Shown here piece by piece: positions 7,646 to 28,330 of a DNA stretch of 38,691 nucleotides. The stretch covers positions 1-38,691 of IMG/VR virus record IMGVR_UViG_3300008627_000023; one strand, given 5' to 3'. The notes under the pieces were generated by a model, which ran no database searches, had not been told where the DNA came from, and saw only the letters and a program-made list of their open reading frames with translations. This stretch comes from a virus. Positions within the stretch are counted from its first letter, which is position 1. Every line of letters begins with the position of its first letter. Position numbers and translations under genes: made by a program.

Positions 7646-7693
7646 TATTAGTTTTAACTACCTGCTAATACTCTTAATCTCAATATAGGTAGT
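7646..7693 (+). promoter_or_regulatory. H-type pseudoknot leader PK-A
   Basis: Stem 1 is TATTAG (7646-7651) with CTAATA (7665-7670). Stem 2 is ACTACCT (7657-7663), inside the loop of stem 1, with AGGTAGT (7687-7693). Loops are 5, 1 and 16 bases. A local hairpin TCCTTT/AAAGGA lies upstream near 7600-7618. The pseudoknot ends 22 bases before the ATG at 7716 and leaves the AAGGA site (7702-7706) free just downstream, so it could gate ribosome access. Confidence 0.65.
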
Positions 7694-7715
7694 AATTTCA
7701 TAAGGAAATAAAATC

Positions 7716-8180
7716 ATGGCTATAACATTAGTTGATAAGTCTGCAGAGACTAAAAACACTAAAAAGCAAAACAACCAAGAGTACTACAACATCTATTTAG
7801 ATGATGAAAGAAGTTGTGTTTTCACACCTAACAGTGAGGCAACAGCTAACGTACTTAATACAGACTTAGTACTTAAGATTATTACTAATAATCTAACTAA
7901 CGATGTATTGTTCACTACTACCAAGCCTAGGAAAGTTAATGGCAAGGTATATACTAACTTCCAAGTTAAAGTTAAACCTGTTAAAGGTGAGCACGCTGGT
8001 AAATACGTTGGTATGGGTTTTATCAATTACTATGATAATGAACTAACTGAAACTAGTTCTGAAGAGCAGAAAGCTCTAACAATTAGTAATATGATGACAG
8101 AGTTAGAGGCTGTTAAACCAGAACAGGTTGTTAAACATCTAACAACTGCAGATGCACAAGTACTTGTAGGTAACTTGTAA
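7716..8180 (+). CDS. Early protein, possible OB-fold/ssDNA-binding factor
   Basis: This is a 154-residue beta-rich protein. Residues 20-110 alternate strands with exposed Lys and aromatic residues, a pattern that can fit an OB-fold, and the C-terminal 40 residues are helical. It lies just before the RNA polymerase gene. N4 encodes an early ssDNA-binding protein (gp2) that brings RNA polymerase II to middle promoters, and this gene is a positional candidate, but I see no diagnostic motif. A pseudoknot leader precedes it and a terminator follows. Confidence 0.75.
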   Translation: MAITLVDKSAETKNTKKQNNQEYYNIYLDDERSCVFTPNSEATANVLNTDLVLKIITNNLTNDVLFTTTKPRKVNGKVYTNFQVKVKPVKGEHAGKYVGMGFINYYDNELTETSSEEQKALTISNMMTELEAVKPEQVVKHLTTADAQVLVGNL

Positions 8181-8189
8181 CATCTAATT

Positions 8190-8232
8190 AAGCCTTAAGA
8201 GTGTCATAGCTCTTAAGGTTTATATTTTTTTT
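8190..8232 (+). terminator. Intrinsic terminator before the RNA polymerase gene
   Basis: CCTTAAGAG (8193-8201) pairs with CTCTTAAGG (8210-8218), extended by about three weaker pairs, around an eight-base loop. Eight T follow at 8225-8232. It ends the second early unit, so partial read-through probably feeds the downstream RNA polymerase gene. Confidence 0.88.
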
Positions 8233-8256
8233 ATTAATTAACAAACAGAGGATAGT

Positions 8257-10032
8257 ATGGAAACTAATCAATTACAAACAGAACAACAATATAGCAAGCA
8301 ACAAACTCAAAGCATTATCTTAGAAGACCTTAACAGAGAATTACCAGTTAAGTTATACATGGATGTACTACAAGCAGTATCTAATTATAGAAGTGCTAAG
8401 TACTATGATTCTAAGAACCTACGTATTAAACACCTAAAGAAAACTAATAAAGTAGTTAATGCTATCTTTTATAACATTCTTAAGACTGATAGACAGCGTC
8501 CTATTCAAGACCCAGCTACTTCCATAGGCTTTGATGTAGGTATGAGAAATCCTGTTGATGCAGTTAAGACTGGTGCAGAGTTATTAGCAGTAACAGCTAA
8601 TACAGGCTTATTTGACATCCTGCTGTATACAGATGGTACAGAGGTTAAACCTAAATTGATAGTAGAAACTGATACTAGGCATAAACTAGATATGCTTCAG
8701 TTCTTACCGCCTATGAAAGAAGTACCTCAAGAATGGGTAGACAACAATACTGGTGGCTGGTTATTCGAACAAAAGAGTGTACTGCTTGGTAAGGGTAATC
8801 ACCATGAAGAACCTCAAGCCTTAGATGCTTTAAATAAATTACAGACAGTACCATGGGAGATAGACCCAGATGTGTTACTAAATGAAACTAATAGTAATAT
8901 TGCTATGGATCCTGATCAGTTCTTAACAATAGCATCAGAGTATATTGGTATGCCTTTCTACTTTGTATGGAGATTTGATAAGCGTGGGCGTAGTTACAGC
9001 AGTGGCTATGACCTTAATATTCAATCTAATGAATATGGTAAAGCTTTGTTATCTCTTCATAATAAAGAAGTTATTACTAAACTTGTTAACCTTAAGATAG
9101 CTATTGCTAATCATGCAGGACATGATAAGTTAACTTGGAGAGAACGTATACAGTGGTTTAATGCTCAGAATGATACCTTTGAAACTAAAGATTGGGATGA
9201 ACCTATCTTAGGTAGAAAGGCTATTAGAGCTTATCAAGATACCTTAGATGGTAAAGCTACAGGTTATACAATGTCCTTAGATGCTACAGCTAGTGGTTTA
9301 CAGGTTATGGCAGCGCTTACAGGCTGTAAGAAGACTGCTAAAGCTTGTAATATGGTTGATACAGGTAAACGTGAAGACCTTTACGAAATGGTAGCTGATG
9401 AAATGAATAAGCACTTAAATAATACTGTTGATAGAAAGTTAGTTAAGAAGCCTATCATGACTCATTACTATAATTCACAAGCTAATCCTGCTAATACCTT
9501 TACAGAGGAACAGTTAGAAGTATTCTATAAAGTATTAGATGATTCTTTTGAAGGTGCTGAAGCTATGATGTCTACTATCAATGACTTCTGGAACTACGAT
9601 GCTGATGTACATCAGTGGACTCTACCAGATGGGCATGTTGCTAAAGTTAAAGTTATGGAAATGACTGATACTCGTATTGAAGTAGATGAGTTAAACCATA
9701 GAACGTTTACTTATAGATACGCTAAGCAAACACCTAGTAATAACTATAGAAGCCTTGTAGCTAACATTGTTCACAGTGTTGATGGTTATATAGCTAGAGA
9801 AATGGTAAGACGTGCAGACTTTGAATTAGTACATATCCATGATTGCTTTGTATTCCACCCTAATTACTTAAGAACAGTAACAGGTATGTATAAAGAGATT
9901 ATGGCTGAAATAGCTAGAAGTAATCTATTGAGTGATATCCTTAGTGAGTTAAAAGGACATCATGTACCAGTTACTAAAGCGTCTAATGATTTAGATGTTG
10001 ATATTCTAAGTAGTCAATACATGTTAAGTTAA
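8257..10032 (+). CDS. T7-type single-subunit RNA polymerase (N4 RNAPII-like), one chain
   Basis: This is a DNA-directed RNA polymerase of 591 residues for middle genes. The active-site motifs are in order: DKRGRSYSSG (DxxGR, about 241-250), motif A DATASGLQVMAAL with its metal-binding Asp (about 343-355), motif B RKLVKKPIMTHYYNSQ with its conserved Lys and Tyr (about 392-407), and motif C HIHDCFVF (about 525-532). N4 makes this enzyme from two polypeptides, gp15 and gp16, of about 670 residues together. Here one continuous frame holds everything and is shorter, with a reduced N-terminal domain. It lies between two terminators, so its dosage depends on read-through from the unit before it. Confidence 0.93.
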   Translation: METNQLQTEQQYSKQQTQSIILEDLNRELPVKLYMDVLQAVSNYRSAKYYDSKNLRIKHLKKTNKVVNAIFYNILKTDRQRPIQDPATSIGFDVGMRNPVDAVKTGAELLAVTANTGLFDILLYTDGTEVKPKLIVETDTRHKLDMLQFLPPMKEVPQEWVDNNTGGWLFEQKSVLLGKGNHHEEPQALDALNKLQTVPWEIDPDVLLNETNSNIAMDPDQFLTIASEYIGMPFYFVWRFDKRGRSYSSGYDLNIQSNEYGKALLSLHNKEVITKLVNLKIAIANHAGHDKLTWRERIQWFNAQNDTFETKDWDEPILGRKAIRAYQDTLDGKATGYTMSLDATASGLQVMAALTGCKKTAKACNMVDTGKREDLYEMVADEMNKHLNNTVDRKLVKKPIMTHYYNSQANPANTFTEEQLEVFYKVLDDSFEGAEAMMSTINDFWNYDADVHQWTLPDGHVAKVKVMEMTDTRIEVDELNHRTFTYRYAKQTPSNNYRSLVANIVHSVDGYIAREMVRRADFELVHIHDCFVFHPNYLRTVTGMYKEIMAEIARSNLLSDILSELKGHHVPVTKASNDLDVDILSSQYMLS

Positions 10033-10035
10033 CAA

Positions 10036-10074
10036 AATCCCCTATGCCGTAAGGTATAGGGGGTTATTTTTTTT
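10036..10074 (+). terminator. Intrinsic terminator after RNA polymerase gene
   Basis: CCCCTATGCC (10039-10048) pairs with GGTATAGGGG (10053-10062) around a GTAA tetraloop (GNRA class). Three weaker base pairs extend the stem, and eight T follow at 10067-10074. It begins four bases after the stop codon. Confidence 0.93.
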
Positions 10075-10101
10075 ATTATGAGTTGGTGGTTGAAAGTACG
10101 A

Positions 10102-10118
10102 AGTGGACTCCGTCCACT
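10102..10118 (+). promoter_or_regulatory. Candidate vRNAP hairpin promoter H3
   Basis: AGTGGAC-TCC-GTCCACT is a perfect 7-bp stem with a TCC loop (GGA on the template, the loop I recall for N4 promoters). It lies 27 bases after the RNA polymerase terminator, with a predicted start near 10122, ahead of the small gene at 10146. It would restart transcription of the accessory region. Confidence 0.65.
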
Positions 10119-10145
10119 AATGTGAATTAATAAAAAGGAAATGAA

Positions 10146-10274
10146 ATGCAACAATTAATTATTTTTAAACAAGACTTTATAGGGGATTGTTGGGTACAAC
10201 TATGCCAACATTTAGATATCCCATTTGAAGCTAAAAAAGCAACAATTTACTTTACTTCTGTAGATTTCGAATAA
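10146..10274 (+). CDS. Small protein of 42 residues, unknown function
   Basis: The frame begins MQQLIIFKQDF and ends SVDFE. It is preceded by AAGGA and placed 28 bases after the H3 hairpin. It has two Cys and a mixed hydrophobic-acidic composition but no motif I recognise. It is supported as a gene by promoter and ribosome site placement rather than by family. Confidence 0.6.
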   Translation: MQQLIIFKQDFIGDCWVQLCQHLDIPFEAKKATIYFTSVDFE

Positions 10275-10303
10275 TTGTTAGACGAAAGACTAACTGCTAT
10301 AAT
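10275..10303 (+). promoter_or_regulatory. Sigma70-type promoter with a dyad in the spacer
   Basis: TTGTTA (10275-10280), 17 bases, then TATAAT (10298-10303) with TGC directly before it (extended -10). Inside the box-to-box interval is an inverted repeat, GTTAGAC-GAAA-GACTAAC (10277-10294, one internal A-A mismatch), overlapping the -35 box like an operator. The predicted start, near 10310, gives a short leader for the gene at 10322. That gene has no clear ribosome site. Confidence 0.6.
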
Positions 10304-10321
10304 TAATATTGAAAACACACA

Positions 10322-10528
10322 ATGTCATCTAAACTTCACTACTCACACTTTGAAATTAAGCATTGTACCCATTTAGGATGTATAAATCATACTAGACAGG
10401 GGTGTAGACTTAATCTACTCTCTATTGAGAAATATGGGACTCTAGTAGAAGGATTACATAATCCTACAATGTGTCAGGCAAGAAGACAAAATGACTTACA
10501 TATGACTGAAAGGATGTTACATGAATAA
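10322..10528 (+). CDS. Small Cys/His-rich protein, probable zinc binder
   Basis: This 68-residue protein has a cluster of likely metal ligands at about 14-28 (HCTHLGCINHTRQGC), plus a Cys near residue 51. The spacing suggests a zinc knuckle or small zinc finger used for nucleic-acid or protein contact. I recognise no named family. It overlaps the helicase gene by eight bases, so the two are probably coupled. The ATG lacks a good Shine-Dalgarno site, consistent with a short transcript from the promoter at 10275. Confidence 0.7.
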   Translation: MSSKLHYSHFEIKHCTHLGCINHTRQGCRLNLLSIEKYGTLVEGLHNPTMCQARRQNDLHMTERMLHE

Positions 10529-11909
10529 TTTTGCATTTAATTTTGGCAGTTCTGCACCTGCTATAAACTTTACTCAAGAGCAGCAAGATATTATTAATAG
10601 TACGGAATCTGCGATTATTGTGAATGCTGTAGCAGGATCAGGAAAGACTTCTGTACTTATGCAATTAGCTAATACAACTAGTAATGGGCTATATTTAGCG
10701 TTTAATAAGGCAATTGTAAATGATGTAGTTGATAAGTTACCTATGGGTTGGAGTTGTAAGACTTTCAACTCACTAGGCCTTTCTATGTTGAAACACCACA
10801 GTAAATTTAAATCTAGTAAAGTAAATTTTAAAAAATATTCAAAGCTATTTAACTATGATGTAGCTGCAAATCTTGCACAAAAGCACATGACACTAGGAGG
10901 TAATGCCAGTGATAAATCATGGGAAGCAACGTGTGATAGATTTAATATTGCTTCTAATCTAATTGAAGATGCTAAAGTATTCCTGAAACAGGGATTAATG
11001 CACACTACTGAAATTAGTGGTGATGAAATGTTGGAATACCCTATGCGATTAGGAATGAAAACAGAAAAGTACGATATGGTACTTGTAGATGAGTGCCAGG
11101 ATTTAAATCCTCAACAAATTAAGTTCTTGAATTGTATACCAACAAACAAGATAGTATTTGTAGGAGATGCTCATCAAGCTATTTATGGATTTAGAGGTAG
11201 TGATCCTCATGCTATTGATCTAATTAAACAAGGATACAATCCTAAAGAATATCCTATGTATGAGAGTTTTAGATGTCCTCAGGAAATACTATCAATAGTA
11301 CATAGTAGAGTTCCTCATATCACTAGTCAAAAGACAGGAGGAGTATTACAGCAAAAATACGCACATAGTATACAATACCCTGATGACTGTTTTATTATTA
11401 GTAGAACTAATTCTTCACTGATTAAACTAGCTTACCAGTTTATCAAGAAAGATATTAAATTCTCAATTGGTAGAATGTTTATAGCTCAATTAGAGAAAGA
11501 ACTAAAGCCACTACTGAAGACAAATAGTCGTATTGACACATTAATTGATAACACAAAAGCACAGTATCATAAGATACTTCAGATTTATGAATCTAAGAAC
11601 TGGAACACTGCTGCATTAAATGACAGATACTCAGGTATTTTTGCTATCTTAGATAGATGCAACACAATTGCAGAAGTTAAAACTTTTATTAAATCTATGA
11701 AGTTACACGAAGATAGTGCAAGTAAGAGAAAGTTAATGACAATTCATGCAAGTAAGGGTTTAGAAACAGACACAGTATTCTTCATTAATCCTGATATTTG
11801 TGATTATCTAAAAACAAGAACAAATGTGGAATGGGAACAGCAACAGGAAGATAACTTATATTATGTAGCATGTACACGAGCACTGCAACAGTTAGTATTA
11901 GTTAGATGA
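10521..11909 (+). CDS. UvrD/Rep-family SF1 DNA helicase
   Basis: This is a 462-residue superfamily 1A helicase. A Q-motif-like NFTQEQQDII lies at about 17-26 and Walker A AVAGSGKTS at about 36-44. Walker B VLVDECQDLNPQQ (about 187-199) has DECQ in place of the usual DExQ. Motif III is GDAHQAIYGFRG (about 215-226). Motif V/VI elements are MTIHASKGLE (about 407-416) and YYVACTRA (about 447-454). It is compact compared with the roughly 700 residues of UvrD, with short accessory subdomains. The likely role is strand separation during phage DNA replication or recombination. Confidence 0.93.
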   Translation: MNNFAFNFGSSAPAINFTQEQQDIINSTESAIIVNAVAGSGKTSVLMQLANTTSNGLYLAFNKAIVNDVVDKLPMGWSCKTFNSLGLSMLKHHSKFKSSKVNFKKYSKLFNYDVAANLAQKHMTLGGNASDKSWEATCDRFNIASNLIEDAKVFLKQGLMHTTEISGDEMLEYPMRLGMKTEKYDMVLVDECQDLNPQQIKFLNCIPTNKIVFVGDAHQAIYGFRGSDPHAIDLIKQGYNPKEYPMYESFRCPQEILSIVHSRVPHITSQKTGGVLQQKYAHSIQYPDDCFIISRTNSSLIKLAYQFIKKDIKFSIGRMFIAQLEKELKPLLKTNSRIDTLIDNTKAQYHKILQIYESKNWNTAALNDRYSGIFAILDRCNTIAEVKTFIKSMKLHEDSASKRKLMTIHASKGLETDTVFFINPDICDYLKTRTNVEWEQQQEDNLYYVACTRALQQLVLVR

Positions 11910-12157
11910 ATGCTATTGATATATTTGATATTGTTCCTGGAATGGGATTACTAATTCCCACTGATAGAGGGAAATGTGAATTTACAAAGCATATAGTGGT
12001 TAGCACTTCAAAAGGGCACCCAGGTTCACGTAAGGTATATTGTAATCATGGTTTTGAATTTGGAGAAGAACACACTTTTTATCTAAATAACCAAGTGAAT
12101 CAAACCTTCTTACTTCTAGAACCAGAACACACAATTATAAACTTTGATGAGGACTAA
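11906..12157 (+). CDS. Small protein of unknown function
   Basis: This 83-residue protein overlaps the helicase stop by four bases (ATGA). It has a beta-rich appearance with GMGLLIP, a Cys-His pair near the middle (YCNHGFEFG) and an acidic tail. I do not recognise it. Tight coupling to the helicase suggests shared expression rather than proven shared function. Confidence 0.7.
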   Translation: MNAIDIFDIVPGMGLLIPTDRGKCEFTKHIVVSTSKGHPGSRKVYCNHGFEFGEEHTFYLNNQVNQTFLLLEPEHTIINFDED

Positions 12158-12159
12158 CT

Positions 12160-12441
12160 ATGCAAATTGAAATATGGCAACTAGCTATCATAACTTCTAT
12201 TATAGGTACAGTAGCATTCCTGCAAGGAATGCGACATATAGGAAAGAAAATTAATAGGATAGGTATTGCTGTAAGTAAACAACAAGTAGATACAGCATAC
12301 TCAGCAGGATTTGAAGATGGTAGAACACAACCTGAATGTTTTAATTCTATAACACCAGATAATGGTGGGGAATGTTATGCTTCAGAATGTACACATCATT
12401 GTAAAACAGAGCCTTTATGTGGTTCACAACATAGGAATTAA
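12160..12441 (+). CDS. Small membrane-anchored Cys-rich protein
   Basis: This is a 93-residue protein. Residues 6-24 form one hydrophobic segment (IWQLAIITSIIGTVAFLQG), followed by a basic patch, which predicts an N-terminal membrane anchor with the rest in the cytoplasm. The C-terminal third has five Cys and several His (ECYASECTHHC and PLCGSQH), a likely metal site. The combination hints at an inner-membrane factor, but no family is recognised. A two-base gap separates it from the preceding gene. Confidence 0.68.
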   Translation: MQIEIWQLAIITSIIGTVAFLQGMRHIGKKINRIGIAVSKQQVDTAYSAGFEDGRTQPECFNSITPDNGGECYASECTHHCKTEPLCGSQHRN

Positions 12442-12444
12442 CTA

Positions 12445-12636
12445 ATGTTAAATTATTCATTTATTTATGACAATATGATTGAACATAAACGTAAGTGTCA
12501 TGCATGTAAAACAGACACCCTTAAAAAAACTAAAGAAACAGAAGGTGATGGTATTAAAGCACCTTCATATATTATTTATGAGTGTCAGGAGTGTGGGCTA
12601 ACTCATAAGCGTATTACTAAAAACTTTAGAGATTAG
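12445..12636 (+). CDS. Small zinc-ribbon protein
   Basis: This is a 63-residue protein with two CxxC knuckles, CHACKTD (about 18-24) and CQECGLTH (about 48-55), the arrangement of a zinc ribbon. The intervening loop is basic and polar. Such proteins usually bind nucleic acid or polymerase subunits, and the exact partner is unknown. It sits between two small genes with gaps of 2-3 bases in one transcription unit. Confidence 0.75.
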   Translation: MLNYSFIYDNMIEHKRKCHACKTDTLKKTKETEGDGIKAPSYIIYECQECGLTHKRITKNFRD

Positions 12637-12638
12637 AA

Positions 12639-12995: not shown

Positions 12996-12997
12996 TT

Positions 12998-13162
12998 ATG
13001 GATACCTTTACTATATTTACACTGGTAATTGCTACAATTGGAGTAGTTATAATTAGTTATGGTCTTGTAATGGCTATTGAAATCAACAAAGATATTAATC
13101 GTAGAGTCATTAAACAAGACCCTGCAAATTTCACACACTTTAAAACTAAATTTGAAAAATAG
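12998..13162 (+). CDS. Small single-pass membrane protein
   Basis: This 54-residue frame starts at the ATG at 12998, with AGGAG eight bases upstream. Residues 4-26 are a single hydrophobic segment (FTIFTLVIATIGVVIISYG). A short charged C-terminus with INKDINRRVI follows, so the tail probably faces the cytoplasm. It may be a host-membrane-acting accessory protein. It is supported by the ribosome site, the membrane pattern and a snug fit between neighbours. Confidence 0.65.
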   Translation: MDTFTIFTLVIATIGVVIISYGLVMAIEINKDINRRVIKQDPANFTHFKTKFEK

Positions 13163-13171
13163 GAGAATATT

Positions 13172-14529: not shown

Positions 14530-14532
14530 ATT

Positions 14533-14727: not shown

Positions 14728-14776
14728 TAACTAGTTTAAGAACACAAAGGCCTCATATAGACCTCAGCCTTGTTAG

Positions 14777-14810
14777 CCAGTTTGAGAGTACTGGTGTGTA
14801 AAAACTCTCA
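14777..14810 (+). promoter_or_regulatory. H-type pseudoknot leader PK-B
   Basis: Stem 1 is CCAGT (14777-14781) with ACTGG (14790-14794). Stem 2 is TGAGAGT (14783-14789) with ACTCTCA (14804-14810). Loops are 1, 0 and 9 bases (TGTGTAAAA, ending in A as is common for the long loop). The stems stack directly, the textbook H-type form. A further hairpin AAGGC/GCCTT (14747-14771) lies just upstream. It ends 28 bases before the ATG at 14839. Confidence 0.7.
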
Positions 14811-14838: not shown

Positions 14839-14967
14839 ATGAGTAAAACACTTATTGAAGGCAGAACTCAAAGAAGAGATGCCAATGGTAACAGAATTAG
14901 TAAAAAATCAGTTAGTCATGGTACATATCGTTGTACAAGACACCCAAATAGTAAGCGCTGTAAATAA
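14839..14967 (+). CDS. Small basic protein
   Basis: This is a 42-residue, strongly basic frame (about 13 Lys or Arg). It has two Cys near the end and a short GGA site before the ATG. The composition suggests nucleic-acid binding. It follows PK-B, so that leader may control it and the 58-residue gene just downstream. No family is recognised. Confidence 0.6.
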   Translation: MSKTLIEGRTQRRDANGNRISKKSVSHGTYRCTRHPNSKRCK

Positions 14968-14969: not shown

Positions 14970-15146
14970 ATGAAACAGCCTGCAGATTACCCAACACAGC
15001 CTACATGTGAAACATGTGGCTCTTATTCTTCTCAATTAGAAGAAGGGATGTGTAAGTGGTGTAGATCACATTACAATCTTATTCCTAATGTAGCACCTGG
15101 ATTTTTTAAACGTACAATTAGAAAGTTAAAATCCAAGTTCAAATAG
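14970..15146 (+). CDS. Small zinc-ribbon protein with basic tail
   Basis: This 58-residue protein has two knuckles, CETCG (about 13-17) and CKWC (about 28-31), and a basic tail (about 47-58). The arrangement fits a small zinc ribbon that contacts nucleic acid. It starts two bases after the previous stop. Its stop codon overlaps the first bases of the H4 hairpin. Confidence 0.68.
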   Translation: MKQPADYPTQPTCETCGSYSSQLEEGMCKWCRSHYNLIPNVAPGFFKRTIRKLKSKFK

Positions 15147-15159
15147 GAACTCCGTTCCT
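15145..15159 (+). promoter_or_regulatory. Candidate vRNAP hairpin promoter H4
   Basis: AGGAAC-TCC-GTTCCT is a 6-bp stem with a TCC loop, overlapping the end of the preceding gene. With N4 spacing the start is near 15164, 14 bases before the ATG at 15178. It would feed the MoxR/VWA and DNA polymerase block. Confidence 0.6.
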
Positions 15160-15948: not shown

Positions 15949-16977
15949 ATGTTAGATATCACACCTAAAGATGCCTCAGAAGGCTTAAAACGCTTATTTA
16001 AAGCAGATAAAGTACCTATGCTTGTAGGTAGCCCAGGAATTGGTAAATCAGACATTATTAATGATTTAGCTAAATCAGTTAATGTAGAAGTACGTGACCT
16101 AAGGTTAGCACAAGCAGACCCTACTGATCTACTAGGATTTCCTATTGTAGATAAAGCAGGTATACGTATGAAATACGCACCACCATCATTATTTCCATTA
16201 AAAGGTATTGATAAAATTCCTGAAGGTAAGAATGGTTGGCTAATCTTTTTAGATGAGATGAATTCAGCTACCCCTAATCTACAATCAGCAGCTTATAAAG
16301 TTGTACTGGATCGTATGGTAGGAGAATATGAATTACACCCTAATACTTGGATTGTATGTGCTGGTAATAAAAAGACTGATAAGGCAGTAGTTAACAAATT
16401 AAGTACAGCTATGCAGTCTAGATTAATTCATATGAATCTATCTGTAAGTCACAAGGACTGGTTAGAGTGGGCTAATACAAACGGTATTGATCATAGAGTA
16501 ATTTCATTTATTAAATTTAGACCTGAGCGTCTACATACATTTGATCCTAATCATAGTGATGATACGTTTGCATGTCCTAGAACTTGGAGCTTCTTGTCAG
16601 ATATTATTGCTTCAAGAGAAGACTTTGACTATACAGACTATGTATTAATGTCGGGTACTGTAGGTCAAGGACCTGCTACTGAATTTAAAGCATACTGCGA
16701 GATTTATGAATCTCTACCTACTATTGAGGATATGTTACAAAATCCTCATGGAATTCAGATGCCAGATGAACCAGATAAACAATACGCTTTAACTACTCTA
16801 GTTAGTCATAATATGAATGAACAAAATATTACACAATTACTAGTTGTAGTTAATAAGCTACCTCCTGAAATGCAATTACTTACATTAAAAGATGTATATA
16901 GTAAAACACCTGCATTAAAAGGACATCAATTAATTTTAGATTGGGTAAATAAGAATGCACACTTAATGGTAGGATAA
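15949..16977 (+). CDS. MoxR-type AAA+ ATPase (N4 gp24-like)
   Basis: This is a 342-residue AAA+ protein. Walker A is VGSPGIGKSD (about 26-35), and Walker B LIFLDEMNSA (about 98-107) has the DE pair. The sensor region is CAGNKKTD (about 138-145), and the segment around RLIHMNL (about 161-167) is typical of MoxR and related DUF-type ATPases. MoxR proteins remodel a partner VWA protein, which is the next gene. The pair is conserved among N4-like phages, although its job there is unclear. Confidence 0.85.
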   Translation: MLDITPKDASEGLKRLFKADKVPMLVGSPGIGKSDIINDLAKSVNVEVRDLRLAQADPTDLLGFPIVDKAGIRMKYAPPSLFPLKGIDKIPEGKNGWLIFLDEMNSATPNLQSAAYKVVLDRMVGEYELHPNTWIVCAGNKKTDKAVVNKLSTAMQSRLIHMNLSVSHKDWLEWANTNGIDHRVISFIKFRPERLHTFDPNHSDDTFACPRTWSFLSDIIASREDFDYTDYVLMSGTVGQGPATEFKAYCEIYESLPTIEDMLQNPHGIQMPDEPDKQYALTTLVSHNMNEQNITQLLVVVNKLPPEMQLLTLKDVYSKTPALKGHQLILDWVNKNAHLMVG

Positions 16978-18304: not shown

Positions 18305-20755
18305 ATGAAACCAATTACTACCGTACTTCTCATTAATGAGAGAGGTGGGATAGATGAATATTCGTTAAATGAATACTACTATGCTCCTTTAGAAAAATTA
18401 GGTATAGCTAGAGATTCTATAATAGCTAAACCACTAATATACGATACACCTAAAAAAGTATCTGCTAAAGTAGGTAAAGCATGGTTAACTAAATTAAGGG
18501 AACAAATTCCTACTACTGTAACTAACTTAATTGTTGCAGACAGTAACTACTACAAGTGGTTAACTAAAAATACAAAGGTATCCACACATGTAGGTACTGC
18601 TGTACTGAGTAAATTTGACGAATATGAAGACTTTAGGTGTGTACATGTACCTCACTACAAATCATTGTATAAACAGCCTGAAAATCAATTACTAATTGAT
18701 ATAGGACTTAAAGCTATTACAGGCTTTACTAAAAAAGCTGTCATACATTCTGAAGAATACACTAAAGTTCTAGGTACTGAGTTAGATATTTTAGATCAAC
18801 TATACCAATACCCAGCACTGACTGTAGATATTGAAACCACAGGACTTAAATTAACAGACACTATTGTTACTATTGCTTTTGCATGGGATCAACATAATGG
18901 TGTTGCTATTGATATTAGAGAAACTGGTTACTGGAATATTAAAGAATTCCTAGTAAATTACTCAGGTACTTTAATTATGCACAATGCATTATTTGATGCT
19001 AAGCTAATGATAGCTAATTGGTGGATGGAATCTGAAACTGACTACAAAGGATTGCAAGAAGGTCTTGAAGTATTTAGTCAAGTAGACGACACCATGTTAC
19101 TTGCTTATTTAGAAAAGAACTCTACTACTCAAGTAGATTTAGGGCTTAAAGGCAATGCTCTTGAATATGTAGGAAATTATGCTTTAGATGTAAAAGATAT
19201 TACTAAACATACTTCTGAAGAATTAATGAAATACAATCTAATTGATACGTTAGCTACATGGTTTGTTTATAACAAATATAGTAACCAACTTACTAGTGAA
19301 ACGTATATTGATATATTCAAGCCTAGTATTAAGCCTATTCTTAAAATGATGTTAGTAGGCTTACCACTAGACCAAGCAGTAGTAGATACAGTATACAAAC
19401 AACTAAAAGATGAAGAATATGCAGTACGTGTAAAGTTACATAAATTACCTACTATCCAAAAAGCTGATCAAATATTTCAAGAACAAGCACGAGAACAAGC
19501 TAATGCTAAATTAAAAACTAAAGTAAAGTCTATTGAAGATTTTCAGTATATTCAATTTAACCCAAGTTCAGGAAAGCAAATAGCAACAATACTCTTCGAA
19601 ATACTAAAGCTACCTGTATTAGATATAACTGCTGGAGGTAGTCCAGCTACTGATGCTAAAACACTTAAAAAACTTAAGAAAGAGACTCAAAATACAGAAG
19701 CTCTTGAAATTATAGAGGGTATTCTTAAAATTGCAGAAGTATCTAAAATAACAGGTACATTTCTTAAAGCTTTTAAAGCTGGAAATAACTTTTTACATGG
19801 TAATCTAAAATTAGGTGGAACACAATCAGGAAGACTATCTAGTAATTCACCTAATTTAACTAATCTACCTGCACAAGGTAAGATGGGTAAGTTAATTAAA
19901 AGCTGTGTTGTAGCTCCTGAAGGGTGGTTATTTGCAGGTGCAGATTTCAATGCTCTAGAAGCTAGAATTAATGCAATTGTATCTGGAGACCCTAATAGAA
20001 TTAAGATTTATACTCAAGGTTATGACAGTCACTGTCTAAATGCATACGCATATTTTAAAGACCAAATGGCTGACATAGACCCAGAAGATGTAGATAGTAT
20101 TAATTCAATTTCTAGTAAATACAAGGAACTTAGACAAAAAGGTAAAGGACCTACATTTGCTTTAACTTATGGAGGTACAGCGTTCACTTTAAATAAGAAT
20201 GCTGGTATCCCATTGAAGGAAGCTAAAGAAATTGAAGATAGTTATCATGAACTATATAAGGTATCTGATGAGTTTGCTGAAAAGAACAAGAAATTTGCTA
20301 TTAAACATGGCTACATGGAATGTGCTTTTGGGTTAAAAATTAAGACACCTATTATTAGTAAGTCTGTAATGGATAATAAAAAGACTCCATATGCAGCAAC
20401 TGCAGAAGTACGTAGTGCTAACAATGCAGTTACACAATCCTGGGGGATGCTACTTAATAGAGCAGTAATCGCTACGAATCAAAGGATCGAAGAAGCAGAA
20501 ATGTATGCAGATATCCTTCCTGTTAACATGATTCACGATGCTGCCTATTTCTTAGTAAAAGATGACCCTAAGGTAGTTAAATTCCTTAACGATGTTCTAA
20601 TTGAAGAAATGGAATGGAATGAGCATCCGCTCATTCAGTCAGATGATATTCCTATGTTAAGTGATTTAGATATAGGCAAATCTTGGGCAGATATGACATT
20701 ATTGCCTAATAGAGCTTCACTAGAAGAAGTAGATAAAATTTTAAAATCGTTATAG
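18305..20755 (+). CDS. Family A DNA polymerase with 3'-5' exonuclease (N4 gp39-like)
   Basis: This is a replicative DNA polymerase of 816 residues. The exonuclease domain shows ExoI DIETTGL (about 175-181), ExoII MHNALFDAK (about 225-233) and ExoIII around YNLIDTLA (about 309-316). The polymerase domain has GRLSSNSPNLTNLP (about 506-519), motif A ADFNALEAR (about 546-554), motif B with KGPTFALTYGG (about 615-625) and motif C MIHDAAY (about 742-748). The N-terminal 170 residues are phage-specific. It sits in the middle of the replication block, right after the MoxR/VWA cluster. Confidence 0.96.
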   Translation: MKPITTVLLINERGGIDEYSLNEYYYAPLEKLGIARDSIIAKPLIYDTPKKVSAKVGKAWLTKLREQIPTTVTNLIVADSNYYKWLTKNTKVSTHVGTAVLSKFDEYEDFRCVHVPHYKSLYKQPENQLLIDIGLKAITGFTKKAVIHSEEYTKVLGTELDILDQLYQYPALTVDIETTGLKLTDTIVTIAFAWDQHNGVAIDIRETGYWNIKEFLVNYSGTLIMHNALFDAKLMIANWWMESETDYKGLQEGLEVFSQVDDTMLLAYLEKNSTTQVDLGLKGNALEYVGNYALDVKDITKHTSEELMKYNLIDTLATWFVYNKYSNQLTSETYIDIFKPSIKPILKMMLVGLPLDQAVVDTVYKQLKDEEYAVRVKLHKLPTIQKADQIFQEQAREQANAKLKTKVKSIEDFQYIQFNPSSGKQIATILFEILKLPVLDITAGGSPATDAKTLKKLKKETQNTEALEIIEGILKIAEVSKITGTFLKAFKAGNNFLHGNLKLGGTQSGRLSSNSPNLTNLPAQGKMGKLIKSCVVAPEGWLFAGADFNALEARINAIVSGDPNRIKIYTQGYDSHCLNAYAYFKDQMADIDPEDVDSINSISSKYKELRQKGKGPTFALTYGGTAFTLNKNAGIPLKEAKEIEDSYHELYKVSDEFAEKNKKFAIKHGYMECAFGLKIKTPIISKSVMDNKKTPYAATAEVRSANNAVTQSWGMLLNRAVIATNQRIEEAEMYADILPVNMIHDAAYFLVKDDPKVVKFLNDVLIEEMEWNEHPLIQSDDIPMLSDLDIGKSWADMTLLPNRASLEEVDKILKSL

Positions 20756-22065: not shown

Positions 22066-22074
22066 GGAGATAAG

Positions 22075-22344: not shown

Positions 22345-22347
22345 TTC

Positions 22348-24480: not shown

Positions 24481-25236
24481 ATGAACAATAACTTAGTATT
24501 AGTATGTGGTAAATCCGCATCAGGTAAATCAGCAAGTCTTCAACATATTGATGACCCAAAAGGTGTTTTGTATCTTAATTGTGAGAACAATAAAAAATTA
24601 CCTTTTAAATCTGATTTTATTCAGTACACAATCACAGATCCTGAACATGTTCCTATGATTATCAATGCGTTAGAGACTGAAGAGTCTATCAATATTGGTG
24701 GTAAAGACCATGATACAGGTAGCATTCACACAGTTGTAGTAGATAGTTTAACGTATCTAATGGATATGTATGAAAGTACTAAAGTACTGACTTCATCTAA
24801 CACTATGCAAGCCTGGGGAGGTTATGCTCAGTTTATGAAGAATATGATGGCACAAGATGTAGCTAAATCTACTCGTAATATCATTTTCTTAGCTCATACC
24901 TCAGATGTCTATAATGAGTCTGAAATGGTTAATGAAACGCTTGTTAAAGTTAAAGGCTCATTAATGAATCAAGGTATAGAGAGTTTCTTCTCTACTGTTA
25001 TCAGCTGTAAGAAGATGCCATTAACTAAAATGGAAATTGCTAACTCTCCTCTATATAAGATTAATGACACAGAAGAGATGCTTGGCTTTAAATATGTATA
25101 CCAAACTCGTTTAACTAAAGAAACTGTTAACGAGCGTATGCGTAGTCCAGTAGGTATGTGGGAAATGAATGAAACATTCATTGATAACAATATACAACAT
25201 GTACTGGAACGTCTTCATACTTACTATGAAGACTAA
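24481..25236 (+). CDS. RecA/Sak4-like ATPase
   Basis: This is a 251-residue single-domain ATPase. Walker A is GKSASGKSA (about 10-18), and a Walker B-like TVVVDSLTYLMD lies at about 84-95. The remainder is compact, with a FLAHTSD sensor (about 138-144). This matches Sak4-type annealing or RecA-core proteins that work with SSB in phage recombination and replication. It follows directly on the primase gene with no gap, as in N4-like gene order. Confidence 0.82.
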   Translation: MNNNLVLVCGKSASGKSASLQHIDDPKGVLYLNCENNKKLPFKSDFIQYTITDPEHVPMIINALETEESINIGGKDHDTGSIHTVVVDSLTYLMDMYESTKVLTSSNTMQAWGGYAQFMKNMMAQDVAKSTRNIIFLAHTSDVYNESEMVNETLVKVKGSLMNQGIESFFSTVISCKKMPLTKMEIANSPLYKINDTEEMLGFKYVYQTRLTKETVNERMRSPVGMWEMNETFIDNNIQHVLERLHTYYED

Positions 25237-25304
25237 GGTGTTTATGTAAATATGCAGAGTTTAGCCTTTAGTAGACGAGGACTATAAATTAAACTCAAGT
25301 TGCT

Positions 25305-25342
25305 AGTCATTTTGGCAGTTTATGACTTTAACTAAGACTGCC
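25305..25342 (+). promoter_or_regulatory. H-type pseudoknot leader PK-C
   Basis: Stem 1 is AGTCAT (25305-25310) with ATGACT (25322-25327). Stem 2 is GGCAGT (25314-25319) with ACTGCC (25337-25342). Loops are 3, 2 and 9 bases (TTAACTAAG). It ends eight bases before an AAGGAG site at 25351-25356 and 18 before the ATG at 25361. The 124-base gap also holds a 5' segment (25237-25304) with no clear gene. Confidence 0.72.
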
Positions 25343-25360
25343 TTCTAATTAAGGAGAAAA

Positions 25361-25663
25361 ATGAAAAATCGAGCATTAAAAAATATTGCGCAAATTTGGC
25401 GTAAGAAACAATTAGTTAAAGCTGAAGTAGATGAAGCTTTAGATAAATATGATTTAAGTAATACAGCTAAAGATATCTTTATCTACATAGCAGCGAACAA
25501 AGCAAATATTTCATCTATTGTACATAATCCGTATTTTGCAGATAAATCAATATCTACAATCAAACGTGCAGTATTAGAACTTAAACAGAGTGTTTTAATT
25601 GAGAGTCAAGTAGATTCCATTGATAAACGTGTGTATTGGTTAATACCTACACAAGGGGACTAA
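25361..25663 (+). CDS. Winged-helix protein
   Basis: This is a 100-residue protein with a MarR- or GntR-like winged-helix outline: a basic N-terminal helix, DLSNTAKDIFIYIAAN (about 30-45), a recognition-type helix KSISTIKRAVLELK (about 64-77) and a wing with RVYWLIP (about 90-96). It probably controls phage transcription or replication. A pseudoknot leader in front suggests that its own translation is regulated. Confidence 0.7.
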   Translation: MKNRALKNIAQIWRKKQLVKAEVDEALDKYDLSNTAKDIFIYIAANKANISSIVHNPYFADKSISTIKRAVLELKQSVLIESQVDSIDKRVYWLIPTQGD

Positions 25664-25664
25664 T

Positions 25665-25748
25665 ATGTTATTTGAATACCTAGTTGGGGCAAGTATTCTA
25701 TACCAAGCATGGCTTATTTATTTAATTATTAACGACTTCCAGGAGTAA
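25665..25748 (+). CDS. Tiny membrane peptide
   Basis: This 27-residue frame starts at 25665, one base after the previous stop. It is nearly all hydrophobic (about residues 2-22, a single membrane segment), with a short acidic end. An AGGAG near its end supplies the next gene's ribosome site. It is small, so the call is tentative. Confidence 0.45.
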   Translation: MLFEYLVGASILYQAWLIYLIINDFQE

Positions 25749-25750
25749 CT

Positions 25751-26155
25751 GTGGGCAGTAAAAATTTAGAATTCACATTAGATGATGGTACTGTTATTAC
25801 AACTAACCAGCTTAGTGAACAATTAGGGTGCAGTGTTAGTACTGCCTATGCAAGATTAATGGCATCGAAAGATCCTAAGTTAGTTTATCGTAAAGTTAAT
25901 AAAACCCATAAAGGCGGGAGGTTTTACACTTTAGATGATGGCACTAAATGGAATGCTGCTTCATTATCTGAAGCTTTAAGTATTCCAATGTCTACTGCTG
26001 CTACTAGGTTATCTTGTTATACAGATCCTAAAAAGGTATTAGCACCTAGACATACTAAGACACGTAAAAAAGAAAAATCAGTACCTAGTATCATTAAACA
26101 ACGTATGTACTTTGACCCAGATGGTTTCTGGAAATTAATTAATAAAGCTACTTAA
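25751..26155 (+). CDS. DNA-binding protein with two tandem HTH-like modules
   Basis: This 134-residue protein is an internal duplication. Module 1 (about 8-47) has FTLDDGT, then QLSEQLGCSVSTAYARL, then DPKLVYRK. Module 2 (about 58-98) has YTLDDGT, then SLSEALSIPMSTAATRL, then DPKKVLAP. Each looks like a short beta pair followed by a helix-turn-helix. A basic link (about 100-112) and an aromatic C-terminus follow. It starts with GTG, with AGGAG five bases upstream. It probably recognises two half-sites as a monomer, which would be unusual and informative. Confidence 0.7.
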   Translation: MGSKNLEFTLDDGTVITTNQLSEQLGCSVSTAYARLMASKDPKLVYRKVNKTHKGGRFYTLDDGTKWNAASLSEALSIPMSTAATRLSCYTDPKKVLAPRHTKTRKKEKSVPSIIKQRMYFDPDGFWKLINKAT

Positions 26156-26159
26156 GTAT

Positions 26160-26171
26160 CGTGGTATGATA
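26160..26171 (+). promoter_or_regulatory. Extended -10 promoter before the structured region
   Basis: CGTGGTATGATA contains TGGTATGAT, an extended -10 box (26162-26170), five bases after the stop of the HTH gene. The same 12-mer is at 3023-3034 on the minus strand as part of another promoter. The -35 region is poor. The predicted start near 26177 falls at the beginning of the structured gene-free stretch. Confidence 0.5.
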
Positions 26172-26590
26172 GCCAAGGTTACGCAGATTAGAGCCATTAA
26201 ATCAGCTGCAGGGGCAGATCAACATGATCTACCTTATGGATCACTCCTCGATTGTTGGGGCTGCCCTTATCTGAAGGGATATTAATCACTAGTCCCCTGT
26301 AAAAAAGGGGCATTAATGTAAAAGGTACCAGTAATAATGTTTTATCCCTGTGTAGAGGGGAGTGTAGTAGTGTACTGGTATCTATGTTGTTAGGCACTAC
26401 TATTATATAATCTACAATAGCGTATAGAGGGATGGTGGCTATTATGAAAATAACTACCCTCAGTATAAACTAGTTGATCCAAACGTAAGTTCGATCTATG
26501 ACGTTCTCCCTCAATTAGGTTTATATCGTTAGAAACATCGTAAATGTTAGTCCTCTACTTTCCTATTTGTAGAGGCACTCTAATTCAAAC
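26172..26590 (+). ncRNA. Candidate structured noncoding RNA
   Basis: About 420 bases hold no plausible gene but many complementary segments. Examples are GGGCAG/CTGCCC (26212-26217 with 26261-26266), enclosing ATCA-6-TGAT; ATTAAT...CCCC with GGGG...ATTAAT (26281-26317, 6+4 bp); TACCAGTA/TACTGGTA (26326-26333 with 26373-26380); GAGGG...CCCTC (near 26427-26461), enclosing GGT/ACC and TATT/AATA; AACGT/ACGTT (26482-26505); and CCTCTAC/GTAGAGG (26552-26558 with 26569-26575). The base composition is clearly richer in G and C than its neighbours. Many short helices in tandem are typical of ornate phage or bacterial RNAs. I see no T-run terminator, so the 3' end is uncertain. Confidence 0.5.
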
Positions 26591-26618
26591 TATATATATC
26601 TCTTTACATAATATACAG

Positions 26619-26686
26619 GTGTCCACCAGTATACTTTTATGGGTTTTAAAGTAATAAGGAGATATTTATGAAAACCTGGTGGACAC
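26619..26686 (+). promoter_or_regulatory. 11-bp leader hairpin enclosing a ribosome site
   Basis: GTGTCCACCAG (26619-26629) pairs perfectly with CTGGTGGACAC (26676-26686). The 46-base loop contains AAGGAG (26656-26661) and an ATG at 26668. The 3' arm overlaps codons 3-7 of the tiny frame that starts there, so translation of that frame would open the hairpin. Confidence 0.6.
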
Positions 26687-26697
26687 TCACATTATAA
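26668..26697 (+). CDS. Nine-residue leader peptide with tandem Trp
   Basis: ATG at 26668 opens a frame encoding MKTWWTLTL, then TAA. It has a good AAGGAG six bases upstream. The two adjacent Trp codons lie in the 3' arm of the 11-bp hairpin, the arrangement used by attenuator leaders to sense a charged tRNA. The next gene starts 14 bases after its stop. No phage family is known to me with this peptide. Confidence 0.45.
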   Translation: MKTWWTLTL

Positions 26698-26711
26698 CAG
26701 GAGATCCAAAT

Positions 26712-26921
26712 ATGGTGAAGAAAGAACTGACCCCTGAACAACTTAAATTGTTCAAACAAGTAACAGGTACAGAAGACATGAAACTAGAAGATAAATTAGT
26801 TTTAGCTATAGCACCTGTGATAGCTGCTCGTAATTACTGTGATGCAACTGATGTTGCCCAGATTAGTTGGCACATTGTAAATGAGATTATGAAAGAACGT
26901 TATACGCATTTAGGAGAATAA
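26712..26921 (+). CDS. Small helical protein downstream of the leader peptide
   Basis: This 69-residue protein begins MVKKELTPEQLKLFKQ, with AGGAG before the ATG at 26712. An alternative GTG at 26679 lies inside the leader hairpin and is less likely. It is almost entirely helical. It is not recognised. It precedes the 163-residue gene by one base. Confidence 0.7.
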   Translation: MVKKELTPEQLKLFKQVTGTEDMKLEDKLVLAIAPVIAARNYCDATDVAQISWHIVNEIMKERYTHLGE

Positions 26922-26922
26922 T

Positions 26923-27414
26923 ATGGGATTTATTAAAGACCGTAATTTCAAATCAAAAATACCTAATGATCTAGGAGTATCTACAGAAAACTTAGATTTT
27001 AATTTACTAATGGGAGATATCGTACAAGCAATTGATATTACTATCAAACAGTATGCTCAACATAAAAATAATAGTATTTATGTGCGTTTCCACGCAAATG
27101 CTATTGAAAAATTAGGGTTACACCATGATGATTCAGTAATGATAACTTTTAATAAATCGTTTACTAGATTTGGTATTCGTAAAGATACTAGAGGAATCAA
27201 AGTAAAAGGAACTAATAAACTACTTTCATTACAGACTTCAAATAAGCTGTTTAATCAATTTGACTTAGATACTGAATGGTATGCTTTATATGATGATATT
27301 GTAAAAGCTACTGATGGTAACTACTTTACTACTGATGTATTTCAAGACAGTAGTTTACTAGAACAGATTAAAGATGACAAAGCTTGGAAAAACTTTGTTG
27401 AAAGTATGGAATAA
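26923..27414 (+). CDS. Protein of unknown function in the replication block
   Basis: This is a 163-residue alpha/beta protein. The first 60 residues contain a helical segment (DIVQAIDITIKQYAQH, about 32-47). The middle has basic beta strands (SVMITFNKSFTRFGIRKD, about 76-93), which could bind nucleic acid. In gene order it lies between the Sak4-like and SSB genes, where N4 has an uncharacterised gene. Its stop directly abuts the opposing stop of the minus-strand gene at 27415 with no gap. Confidence 0.7.
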   Translation: MGFIKDRNFKSKIPNDLGVSTENLDFNLLMGDIVQAIDITIKQYAQHKNNSIYVRFHANAIEKLGLHHDDSVMITFNKSFTRFGIRKDTRGIKVKGTNKLLSLQTSNKLFNQFDLDTEWYALYDDIVKATDGNYFTTDVFQDSSLLEQIKDDKAWKNFVESME

Positions 27415-27801
27415 CTATTTAGGTAATTTAAGATTTGCTAGGTAAGAACCATAGCCTTCTAGATCTTTTCTACCTAATCCTATAGAATCAGCAACATTAG
27501 TATCGATAAACCAATCACCTAACTTGTAACCCCCATATCCTGCAAGTGCTGCAAGACCTAGAGTACCACCTACTGTTGGTTTAGCTCCCATAAAAGAACC
27601 TTGAAGGTTCATAGGAAGTTTACCTGCTTTCCACCAATTAGTAGTGGAAGGATTAGGAATACCTTGTTTAGCTGCCATAGAATTAGGTAACCATGACTGA
27701 CCTTTACCTGTTAAAGCATGTCTGGTCATATCTGCAGCTTGTGCAGCAGATGCTCCTGCTAAAGTATTAAGAGATAACTGCTTTAATTCATCAGAGGTCA
27801 T
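27415..27801 (-). CDS. Gly/Ala-rich protein, possible virion or membrane component
   Basis: This 128-residue protein has a Gly/Ala-rich segment at about 75-95 (GGTLGLAALAGYGGYKLG), which could insert in a membrane or form a tight helix contact. A Trp/Gly/Pro-rich centre precedes it. It overlaps the next gene by four bases (ATGA-like), so the two are one unit. Both are on the minus strand among plus-strand replication genes. Late-gene polarity suggests a virion protein, but no family is recognised. Confidence 0.65.
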   Translation of the reverse strand: MTSDELKQLSLNTLAGASAAQAADMTRHALTGKGQSWLPNSMAAKQGIPNPSTTNWWKAGKLPMNLQGSFMGAKPTVGGTLGLAALAGYGGYKLGDWFIDTNVADSIGLGRKDLEGYGSYLANLKLPK

Positions 27802-28178
27802 ATTTCTTTAGGGGCACCTGATGGTAAGATTTCTGGAGCTGTTTGTAAGTTATATAAATGCATAAAGTCTTGCAGTAAGAAAGGAATACCTAACACGCCT
27901 GGTAATTTAGTTCCTCCTGGGAATCTAAAATTAGTATTCTGAGGTTTAGGTTTATACATATTCTTTTCGTGACGAGCAGCATCTTTCATAATATCTTGCT
28001 GATTCATACGAACTACTTCTTTAGCTTGTTCACGTAAGATAGCTTGGTCTTTATTCCAAGCAGGGTTAATTACAGATTTCCCATTTTGTGTAATAAATTG
28101 GGGGTGTTTACTAGGAAAGTTACCTTTAGCATCAACACCTGGTAACTTTAACCCTTTAATATCTTCAAATCCGCTCAT
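27798..28178 (-). CDS. Protein of unknown function, possible virion component
   Basis: This is a 126-residue protein from ATG 28178 (MSGFEDIKGLKLP). The middle is charged and helical (about 45-75), and the last 35 residues contain a Pro/Gly-rich PGVLGIPFLLQDFMHLY stretch. No ribosome site is visible, and a TATAAT box ends nine bases upstream, so the mRNA may be nearly leaderless. A TTG in frame at 28199 is the alternative start and also lacks a ribosome site. Confidence 0.6.
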   Translation of the reverse strand: MSGFEDIKGLKLPGVDAKGNFPSKHPQFITQNGKSVINPAWNKDQAILREQAKEVVRMNQQDIMKDAARHEKNMYKPKPQNTNFRFPGGTKLPGVLGIPFLLQDFMHLYNLQTAPEILPSGAPKEI

Positions 28179-28187
28179 AGTAGTGGC

Positions 28188-28197
28188 ATTATATAAC
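28188..28197 (-). promoter_or_regulatory. TATAAT box next to the start codon
   Basis: GTTATATAAT on the minus strand (28197-28188) includes TATAAT at 28193-28188. The predicted start is near 28181, three bases before the ATG at 28178. The same ten bases precede the winged-helix gene at 6345-6354. No good -35 box is present. Confidence 0.4.
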
Positions 28198-28255
28198 AAA
28201 AAAAGCTAAAATAGGAAAATCTCTATACTTATTTAACACAACATATTTTATATAT

Positions 28256-28274
28256 GAGGGTACTCCGTACCCTC
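28256..28274 (+). promoter_or_regulatory. Candidate vRNAP hairpin promoter H5 before SSB
   Basis: GAGGGTAC-TCC-GTACCCTC is a perfect 8-bp stem with a TCC loop, the longest of the family. With N4 spacing the transcription start is near 28277, three bases before stem 1 of the pseudoknot PK-D. It would give the SSB operon a vRNAP-type promoter. Confidence 0.65.
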
Positions 28275-28279
28275 TAATG

Positions 28280-28330
28280 AATTTACAATTATTAGTTGTC
28301 TAATTGTAAATTTAAATTATATCTGACAAC
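28280..28330 (+). promoter_or_regulatory. H-type pseudoknot leader PK-D of the SSB mRNA
   Basis: Stem 1 is AATTTACAATTA (28280-28291) with TAATTGTAAATT (28301-28312), 12 bp. Stem 2 is GTTGTC (28295-28300) with GACAAC (28325-28330). Loops are 3, 0 and 12 bases. The AGAGGA ribosome site starts at the next base and the ATG is at 28344. In T2/T4, a leader pseudoknot in the gene 32 mRNA lets the SSB repress itself; this leader has the same setting. Confidence 0.75.

Follow-up and report, generated by a model that had tools for sequence, protein, structure and literature searches.

Prediction and covariation show H-type RNA pseudoknots in four plus-strand mRNA leaders of the virus record IMGVR_UViG_3300008627_000023 (IMG/VR; 38,691 bases, analysed at full length and called the window here) and in the counterparts of these leaders in related phages; the knots usually end about 13-29 nucleotides (nt) before the start codon. 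One of them, PK-D, precedes the gene of an N4-type single-stranded-DNA-binding protein (SSB); PK-A precedes a gene directly before that of the middle RNA polymerase, and PK-B and PK-C lead two further genes. The window itself has an N4-like gene set in N4-like order, as judged from PHROG profile matches, and the description as an N4-like phage in the initial annotation is borne out by the genes for virion RNA polymerase, SSB, RNA polymerase, primase and Sak4. We tentatively read the knots as cis-acting post-transcriptional or translational operators, of which the one before the SSB gene perhaps resembles the T4 gene 32 operator; they would act in cis at translation initiation or on mRNA decay.

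Four leader pseudoknots in the window

An exhaustive scan was carried out for two stems (S1, S2) of at least 5 base pairs (bp) with loops L1 of 1-6 nt, L2 of 0-2 nt and a bounded L3, scored by nearest-neighbour stacking energies (E). All four pseudoknots are present where the initial annotation had placed them, PK-B beginning at 14776 and PK-D at 28278, and its stem and loop sizes agree with ours within 1-2 nt. PK-A (7641-7693, plus strand as the other three) consists of S1 7646-7652/7664-7670, L1 7653-7656, S2 7657-7663/7687-7693 and L3 7671-7686; its S1 can be extended to 7641-7644/7672-7675 over one mismatch, L3 then being shorter. PK-B (14776-14810) is made up of S1 14776-14781/14790-14795, L1 14782, S2 14783-14789/14804-14810 and L3 14796-14803, and PK-C (25305-25342) of S1 25305-25310/25322-25327, L1 25311-25313, S2 25314-25321/25335-25342 and L3 25328-25334, the latter 7-9 nt long according to how S2 is drawn. 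PK-D (28278-28330) has S1 28278-28291/28301-28314, L1 28292-28294, S2 28295-28300/28325-28330 and L3 28315-28324, and a Shine-Dalgarno-like AGAGGA (28331-28336, plus strand) follows directly 3' of it. Stacking energies are -20.6 (PK-A), -23.7 (PK-B), -23.55 (PK-C) and -24.8 (PK-D), and the knots end 22, 28, 18 and 13 nt before the ATG, respectively, matching the 13-28 bases claimed earlier.

When the 75 nt before each ATG were compared with 5000 dinucleotide shuffles, PK-A, PK-B and PK-D gave p = 0.0004 each and PK-C p = 0.001, the four leaders tested being those that the initial annotation had picked. Scanning the whole plus strand of the window at E ≤ -22 yielded five matches. Three are PK-B, PK-C and PK-D, one is a terminator hairpin (10036), and one runs antisense to the open reading frame (ORF) at 377; PK-A with its -20.6 lies outside this set. 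Since the number observed exceeds that in shuffles only moderately (5 versus a mean of 1.25, with a maximum of 5 in 60 shuffles), single-sequence evidence by itself would not settle the reality of the knots. Counted over leaders of 50-450 nt, as defined by a simple gene caller, 4 of 10 on the plus strand carry a knot with E ≤ -20 ending at most 45 nt from the start, where shuffles lead one to expect 0.07; the proportion of "about half" of the longer plus-strand leaders given earlier is thus to be put at four in ten.

Covariation and recurrence in related phages

A tblastn search over fetched loci, which included the best 80 of 124 relatives, provided 119 loci with an SSB gene and 70 distinct SSB leaders, with 35-66% identity to the window protein among those aligned. 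A PK-D-like knot of 42-53 nt, ending 13-23 nt before the ATG, is found in 12 of the 70, window included; these 12 form alignment A2 and were chosen because the knot had been seen in them, the other 58 being left out. Their layout comprises an S1 of 10-14 bp (6 bp in L011), L1 of 2-6 nt, S2 of 6-8 bp, L2 of 0-2 nt and L3 of 7-19 nt. As drawn, S1 contains one or two mismatches in 7 of the 12, and leader L041, which was kept in the set by homology, has p = 1.0 in the strict scan (stems of at least 5 bp) owing to such mismatches. The SSB gene lies at least 1.9 kb behind gp44 in all 12 (3.1 kb in the window, where it has its own leader); in cultured Schitoviridae it follows gp44 by 9-66 nt in 14 of 18 loci, with one gene between in the other 4. 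An SSB gene apart from gp44 also occurs without the knot, in the L136 type (2.8 kb, contig G015).

In A2, a plain MAFFT alignment, the PK-D structure reaches a covariation score of 0.495 compared to 0.234 for shuffled alignments (0 of 500 as high), both sides are changed in 14 of 17 pairs (again 0 of 500), and 86.7% of the cells are paired, as opposed to 35-45% when the structure is slid along the alignment. Partial misalignment of four rows (window, L050, L058 and L011) works to the disadvantage of the structure. S2 taken alone still scores 0.364 versus 0.217 (0 of 500), with 86.2% of its cells paired. Outside the chosen 12, a total of 10 of the 58 SSB leaders reach p < 0.05 in the strict scan, many of these stretches entering the gp44 coding sequence. 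As a separate observation, contig G004, from which leader L131 derives, has a strong leader knot directly behind its SSB gene (16189-16259 in the orientation used here), with a Shine-Dalgarno-like GGAGG inside the fold.

The PK-A set was not selected for the knot. The gene behind PK-A (7716-8180, plus strand) encodes 154 amino acids (aa), and a profile search for homologues of its product gave 22 loci, in which 8 leaders are identical to another one, leaving 14 distinct leaders. All 14 have the PK-A fold (p ≤ 0.01 each, 1000 shuffles); in L225 the knot ends 43 nt before the chosen start, L238 has p = 10/1000, and the leaders L232, L234 and L239 are near-identical. MAFFT alignment A5 of all 14, which replaced a partly out-of-register alignment of seven leaders (A4), gives a covariation score of 0.638 compared to 0.262 for shuffles (0 of 500) and 89.5% paired cells compared to at most 47.7% for the slid structure, with both sides changed in 13 of 17 pairs, a number that 8 of 500 shuffles reach. 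For S2 alone, all 84 of 84 cells are paired and the score is 0.524 versus 0.203 (0 of 500). An assignment of the 154-aa product to N4 gp2 was considered and rejected, there being no profile match and only two low-confidence structure models (predicted local distance difference test, pLDDT, 51 and 46). Shortly upstream of PK-A, an element GATAGT ... AGAAA was read in seven of seven contigs (window at about 7616-7634, L174, L176, L178, G003, G005 and G009); it is maybe a middle promoter or an operator. In N4, the reverse complement of GATAGTT (AACTATC) is present in the gp2, gp3 and gp8 leaders.

Across the two alignments, G-U cells outnumber A-C cells by 20:3 and 23:3, which marks the mRNA strand and is what selection on the plus-strand RNA would lead one to expect. 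Both families combine a long S1 with a pyrimidine-rich, nearly G-free L3: the pyrimidine content of L3 is 79% for PK-A (2 G in 117 nt) and 75% for PK-D (1 G in 124 nt), compared to 51% for the 75-nt leaders with PK-D. These loops were read by hand in 12 of 14 PK-A leaders (L225 and L238 left out) and in all 12 PK-D leaders; in some of the rows, S1 was continued past a mismatch. Loop sequences are not conserved within either family (A5, A2). PK-B and PK-C are compact instead, with an S1 of 5-6 bp and an L3 of about 5-8 nt that contains purines. The four knots are therefore not one class but two, long-stem (A and D) and compact (B and C). The initial annotation had proposed a single undescribed class of regulatory RNA; its novelty is consistent with the searches described below, its homogeneity is not.

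PK-B lies before the gene of a small basic 42-aa protein (14839-14967, plus strand). It has near relatives in L130, L013 and L122, the last with a compensatory change from C-G to U-A, while L139, L141 and L144 hold more remote relatives that share its layout; a scan of viral contigs with the PK-B core pattern returned 9 stretches, all in contigs already found. In nine hand-aligned rows, including L008 and L020 of uncertain kinship, both sides are changed in 4 of 5 pairs of one PK-B stem and 5 of 6 of the other. PK-C precedes a 100-aa gene (25361-25663, plus strand; phrog_37711, function not annotated) and has relatives shortly behind gp44 in L012, L130, L149, L134, L127 and L150; in seven hand-aligned rows, both sides are changed in 5 of 5 pairs of each stem. 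These pair counts lean towards structure for both knots. A tie between PK-C and the phrog_37711 gene was rejected, as the relatives of PK-C precede another small gene. Upstream of PK-C (window 25250-25304), complementary GTTTA ... TAAAC around a purine-rich stretch was noticed by eye in the seven rows read, and the knot may have a further structured element in front of it there.

For an estimate of breadth we used 13 contigs, the window and 12 relatives, which are mutually related, so that knot counts among them are not independent events. Their 177 leaders hold 27 knots at E ≤ -22, compared to a shuffled mean of 1.6 (maximum 5); 183 non-leader strands, taken as other-strand control, hold 6 compared to 1.3, itself above shuffles. 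Knots with E ≤ -20 ending at most 45 nt from the start occur in 23 of 110 plus-strand leaders (about 0.5 expected), of which 21 fall into the four families (6 type A, 9 type D, 3 type B, 3 type C), the remaining two being a terminator-like one in G001 and another in G004. Contigs G014 and G015, whose RNA polymerases are among the least similar (48% and 47%), have no such knots. The initial annotation had named shuffled controls and covariation in homologues as checks; knots do exceed shuffled sequence, per leader as well as across leaders, and covariation was found for the PK-A and PK-D families.

What speaks against giving the bare counts much weight is that control phages also exceed expectation, with 8 of 75 leaders at E ≤ -20 compared to about 1.5 (N4 1-45000 in two pieces, and the first 45000 each of JA-1 and pYD6-A). 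Six of the 8 matches end at most 45 nt from the start, and most are, by eye, hairpins followed by U runs, i.e. terminators; JA-1 18599-18891 and pYD6-A 4986-5335 are not plainly so. The scan alone thus overcounts in any phage; what carries the argument is the recurrence of the families together with their covariation. Chance folding in AT-rich leaders would agree with these control matches and with whole-window counts on the minus strand, which are near shuffled values, but it is contradicted by the covariation of PK-D and PK-A and by the return of the same families at the same genes, and we give it practically no credence.

Candidate function and known systems

Just upstream of PK-D lies a hairpin of the type used as promoter by the N4 virion RNA polymerase (28256-28274, plus strand), with an 8-bp stem, the coding-strand loop TCC and the template loop GGA, and with a predicted +1 at 28276. 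It has the form of the N4 early promoters (a stem of at least 5 bp and a template loop G-N-A closed by C-G; centring at -11 was assumed), for which the available text of PMC4496689 gives the template loop as -12A -11G -10G, with -9C. The phage also encodes a virion RNA polymerase (29960-38101, minus strand; phrog_2206), as an early promoter of this type requires. The same form recurs in 11 of the 12 PK-D leaders, as a hairpin with a TCC coding-strand loop closed by C-G and a predicted start 4-18 nt before S1. Promoters P1-P3 of N4 likewise have a template-strand C-GNA-G triloop hairpin, and the GGA loop before PK-D is as in N4; they differ in place, the hairpins in the N4 leaders read (gene 1-25 region) lying upstream of gp1, gp2 and gp15, whereas here one stands before the SSB gene. 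With such a hairpin just upstream, PK-D would sit near the 5' end of the SSB mRNA. Further C-TNC-G triloop hairpins of this type occur on the plus strand of the window at 6844-6858, 7238-7250, 10102-10118 and 15145-15159.

This arrangement would suit a knot that aids release of the nascent RNA from the DNA template, an SSB-assisted step in transcription by the N4 virion polymerase; displacement of the transcript by EcoSSB is described for N4 in the available text of PMC4496689. We regard such a role as very improbable, since each of the four other hairpins in the window precedes a plus-strand gene with no knot between hairpin and next start, and the 100 nt upstream of PK-A, PK-B and PK-C contain no such hairpin.

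Under the operator reading, which we prefer, the knot would fill the 5' part of a short SSB leader transcribed from a virion-RNA-polymerase-type promoter and abut the Shine-Dalgarno sequence. SSB in excess over single-stranded DNA might then bind the knot, in which the pyrimidine-rich, nearly G-free L3 would be exposed, and block binding of the 30S subunit; once single-stranded DNA appears, SSB would leave the knot and translation would resume. As the same long-stem, pyrimidine-loop knot heads the middle RNA polymerase operon, control by SSB or by the product of the operon's first gene may be alike there. For the compact knots PK-B and PK-C, the probable point of action is also access of the ribosome or of RNases to the leader, but their control would not be autogenous.

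The main rival to this holds that the knots work without a protein, each forming a compact cap close to the mRNA 5' end that guards against 5'-end-dependent decay and also keeps the ribosome-binding site open. Consistent with it are the position of PK-D near the predicted 5' end, the similar distances of the knots from the ATG, and the compact PK-B-like knots before different-looking genes, as expected of a generic element. Nevertheless, 6 of the 10 window leaders of 50-450 nt lack a knot, as do four SSB leaders that have the promoter hairpin (L064, L067, L106 and L161); PK-A and PK-D are each tied to one gene, which suggests gene-specific control, and the pyrimidine-rich loop would be without obvious role. 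We consider this explanation unlikely, albeit the most serious of the alternatives.

A wider version of the operator reading would make the knots a phage-wide RNA regulon under a single phage protein acting in trans, for which SSB is the simplest candidate. Its free level would mirror how much single-stranded phage DNA is present; it would bind leader knots that are alike in structure but diverged in sequence, those of its own mRNA and of the middle-RNA-polymerase operon, perhaps also those of the compact-knot mRNAs, and so order early and middle protein synthesis. The presence of four knots in one window speaks for it, as do the geometry and nearly G-free pyrimidine loop that families A and D share despite different stems; PK-B and PK-C, however, differ in geometry and have purines in their loops, and SSB binding is putative, so that we hold the regulon to be doubtful. 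If it were true, the replication state would be coupled to phage transcription and translation, and T4-style autoregulation would have had a separate origin in a different phage family, where it would have come to govern several operons.

Several observations weigh against the operator reading itself. Only 13-23 nt (13 in the window) separate the SSB knot from the ATG, compared to more than 40 nt with UUAAA repeats in T4. None of the 18 cultured Schitoviridae loci has a PK-D-like knot in its SSB leader (four of them, L101, L102, L105 and L112, still reach p < 0.05 in the strict per-leader scan); such control is therefore not universal. Changes in S2 alone are not always unusual: 48 of 500 shuffles reach the 4 of 6 doubly changed pairs of PK-D and 304 of 500 the 3 of PK-A, and the pair types are equalled by 173 of 500 (PK-D) and 470 of 500 (PK-A). 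The pair counts for PK-B and PK-C stem from hand-aligned segments without shuffle control. Moreover, the genes behind PK-B-like knots look, by eye, unrelated to each other, which is at odds with all four knots being autogenously controlled, and the product of the gene behind PK-A matched no identity by profile or by the two low-confidence models. Finally, SSB binding, the translational effect and the transcription start are all predictions.

Among the leader pseudoknots of phages, the one of T4 gene 32 is the best known. As a method control, our scan with relaxed limits found it as a 28-nt knot (S1 4, L1 1, S2 7, L3 5) that starts 67 and ends 39 nt before the ATG and that 20 of 500 shuffles equal in score. 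This agrees with the available descriptions in PMC3014915, where the gene 32 leader pseudoknot is described, and PMC535899. As in the gene 32 operators of T4, T2 and RB69, PK-D precedes an SSB gene (28344-29063, plus strand; phrog_743), and an H-type knot lies upstream of the ribosome-binding site; the gene 32 knots sit near the mRNA 5' end, where the predicted +1 would place PK-D as well. The structure of those operators is similar among relatives despite diverged sequence (available text of PMC535899), as here. The SSB here is, however, of N4 type (phrog_743), the PK-D family has a long S1, 42-53 nt and an end 13-23 nt from the ATG compared to about 28 nt and 39 nt in T4, and the UUAAA/UAAA repeats that follow the T4 knot (an unstructured stretch of more than 40 nt) have no counterpart here. 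Repression through SSB binding is a feature of the T4 operator and would be a putative one of PK-D; the compact geometry of PK-B and PK-C comes near that of the T4 knot. The gene 32 model would thus fit in gene, place and structure but not in the AU-rich spacer, and because this long spacer with UUAAA repeats is absent we do not file PK-D as a member, although the SSB knot may work like one.

Pseudoknots at the translation start also serve autogenous control in the E. coli S15 mRNA; the S15 knot is located at the ribosome-binding site, where it holds the ribosome trapped, whereas those described here are just upstream. H-type pseudoknot leaders occur in some riboswitches as well. That the present knots are metabolite-binding riboswitches of this type is nonetheless even less probable than a role in RNA release, as loop sequences are unconserved within families A and D and no relevant Rfam match was obtained: Rfam 15 gave four matches for the window up to E = 5, all to eukaryotic families and far below gathering score, and none at gathering score for the 12 relatives. 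In the open-licence PubMed Central (PMC) literature searched, the nearest described RNA near SSB genes is, from the available text of PMC2864571, the STAXI motif, likewise a pseudoknot RNA often near such genes, which differs from the single knot without Rfam match seen here in that its knots stand in tandem, as pairs or triplets, and frequently have UUCG loops. The same literature offered no pseudoknot description for N4-like phages or Schitoviridae (in its available text, PMC10654107 has the word only in the reference list) and nothing under the terms for H-type pseudoknots in phage mRNA leaders; for SSB or gene 32 pseudoknots with autogenous control it offered T4 and RB69 work, with no N4-like title among the matches listed. 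"Undescribed" accordingly holds within the Rfam and open-licence PMC searches only.

The knots suggest that the N4-like phages, which are known for their three-polymerase programme, also have post-transcriptional control, at least in one group, and with covarying knots before the SSB gene and the middle RNA polymerase operon it becomes testable whether different phage SSBs have repeatedly evolved pseudoknot operators. Families A and D could become Rfam models.

Gene content and further observations

PHROG matches in the window follow the N4-like order RNA polymerase, helicase, ATPase, DNA polymerase, exonuclease, primase, Sak4/gp44 (24481-25236), SSB and Holliday resolvase, with the virion RNA polymerase on the opposite strand. 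Searching annotated phages for near-DNA similarity to window 1-25000 returned a single match, a weakly similar terminase stretch. The 134-aa product of 25751-26155 matches the profile of a Ren-like exclusion protein (phrog_16568, E 2.9e-9), and its helix-turn-helix matches in Pfam are below cut-off. The virion RNA polymerase has 2713 aa and is smaller than that of N4 (coding sequence of about 10.5 kb), the PHROG match spanning residues 1587-2687 only. The N4-like RNA polymerase behind PK-A, which we take as RNAPII, is encoded by one ORF of 591 aa (8257-10032, plus strand), the two halves of which match the RNA polymerase profiles phrog_2166 and phrog_2051, whereas N4 has separate gp15 and gp16.

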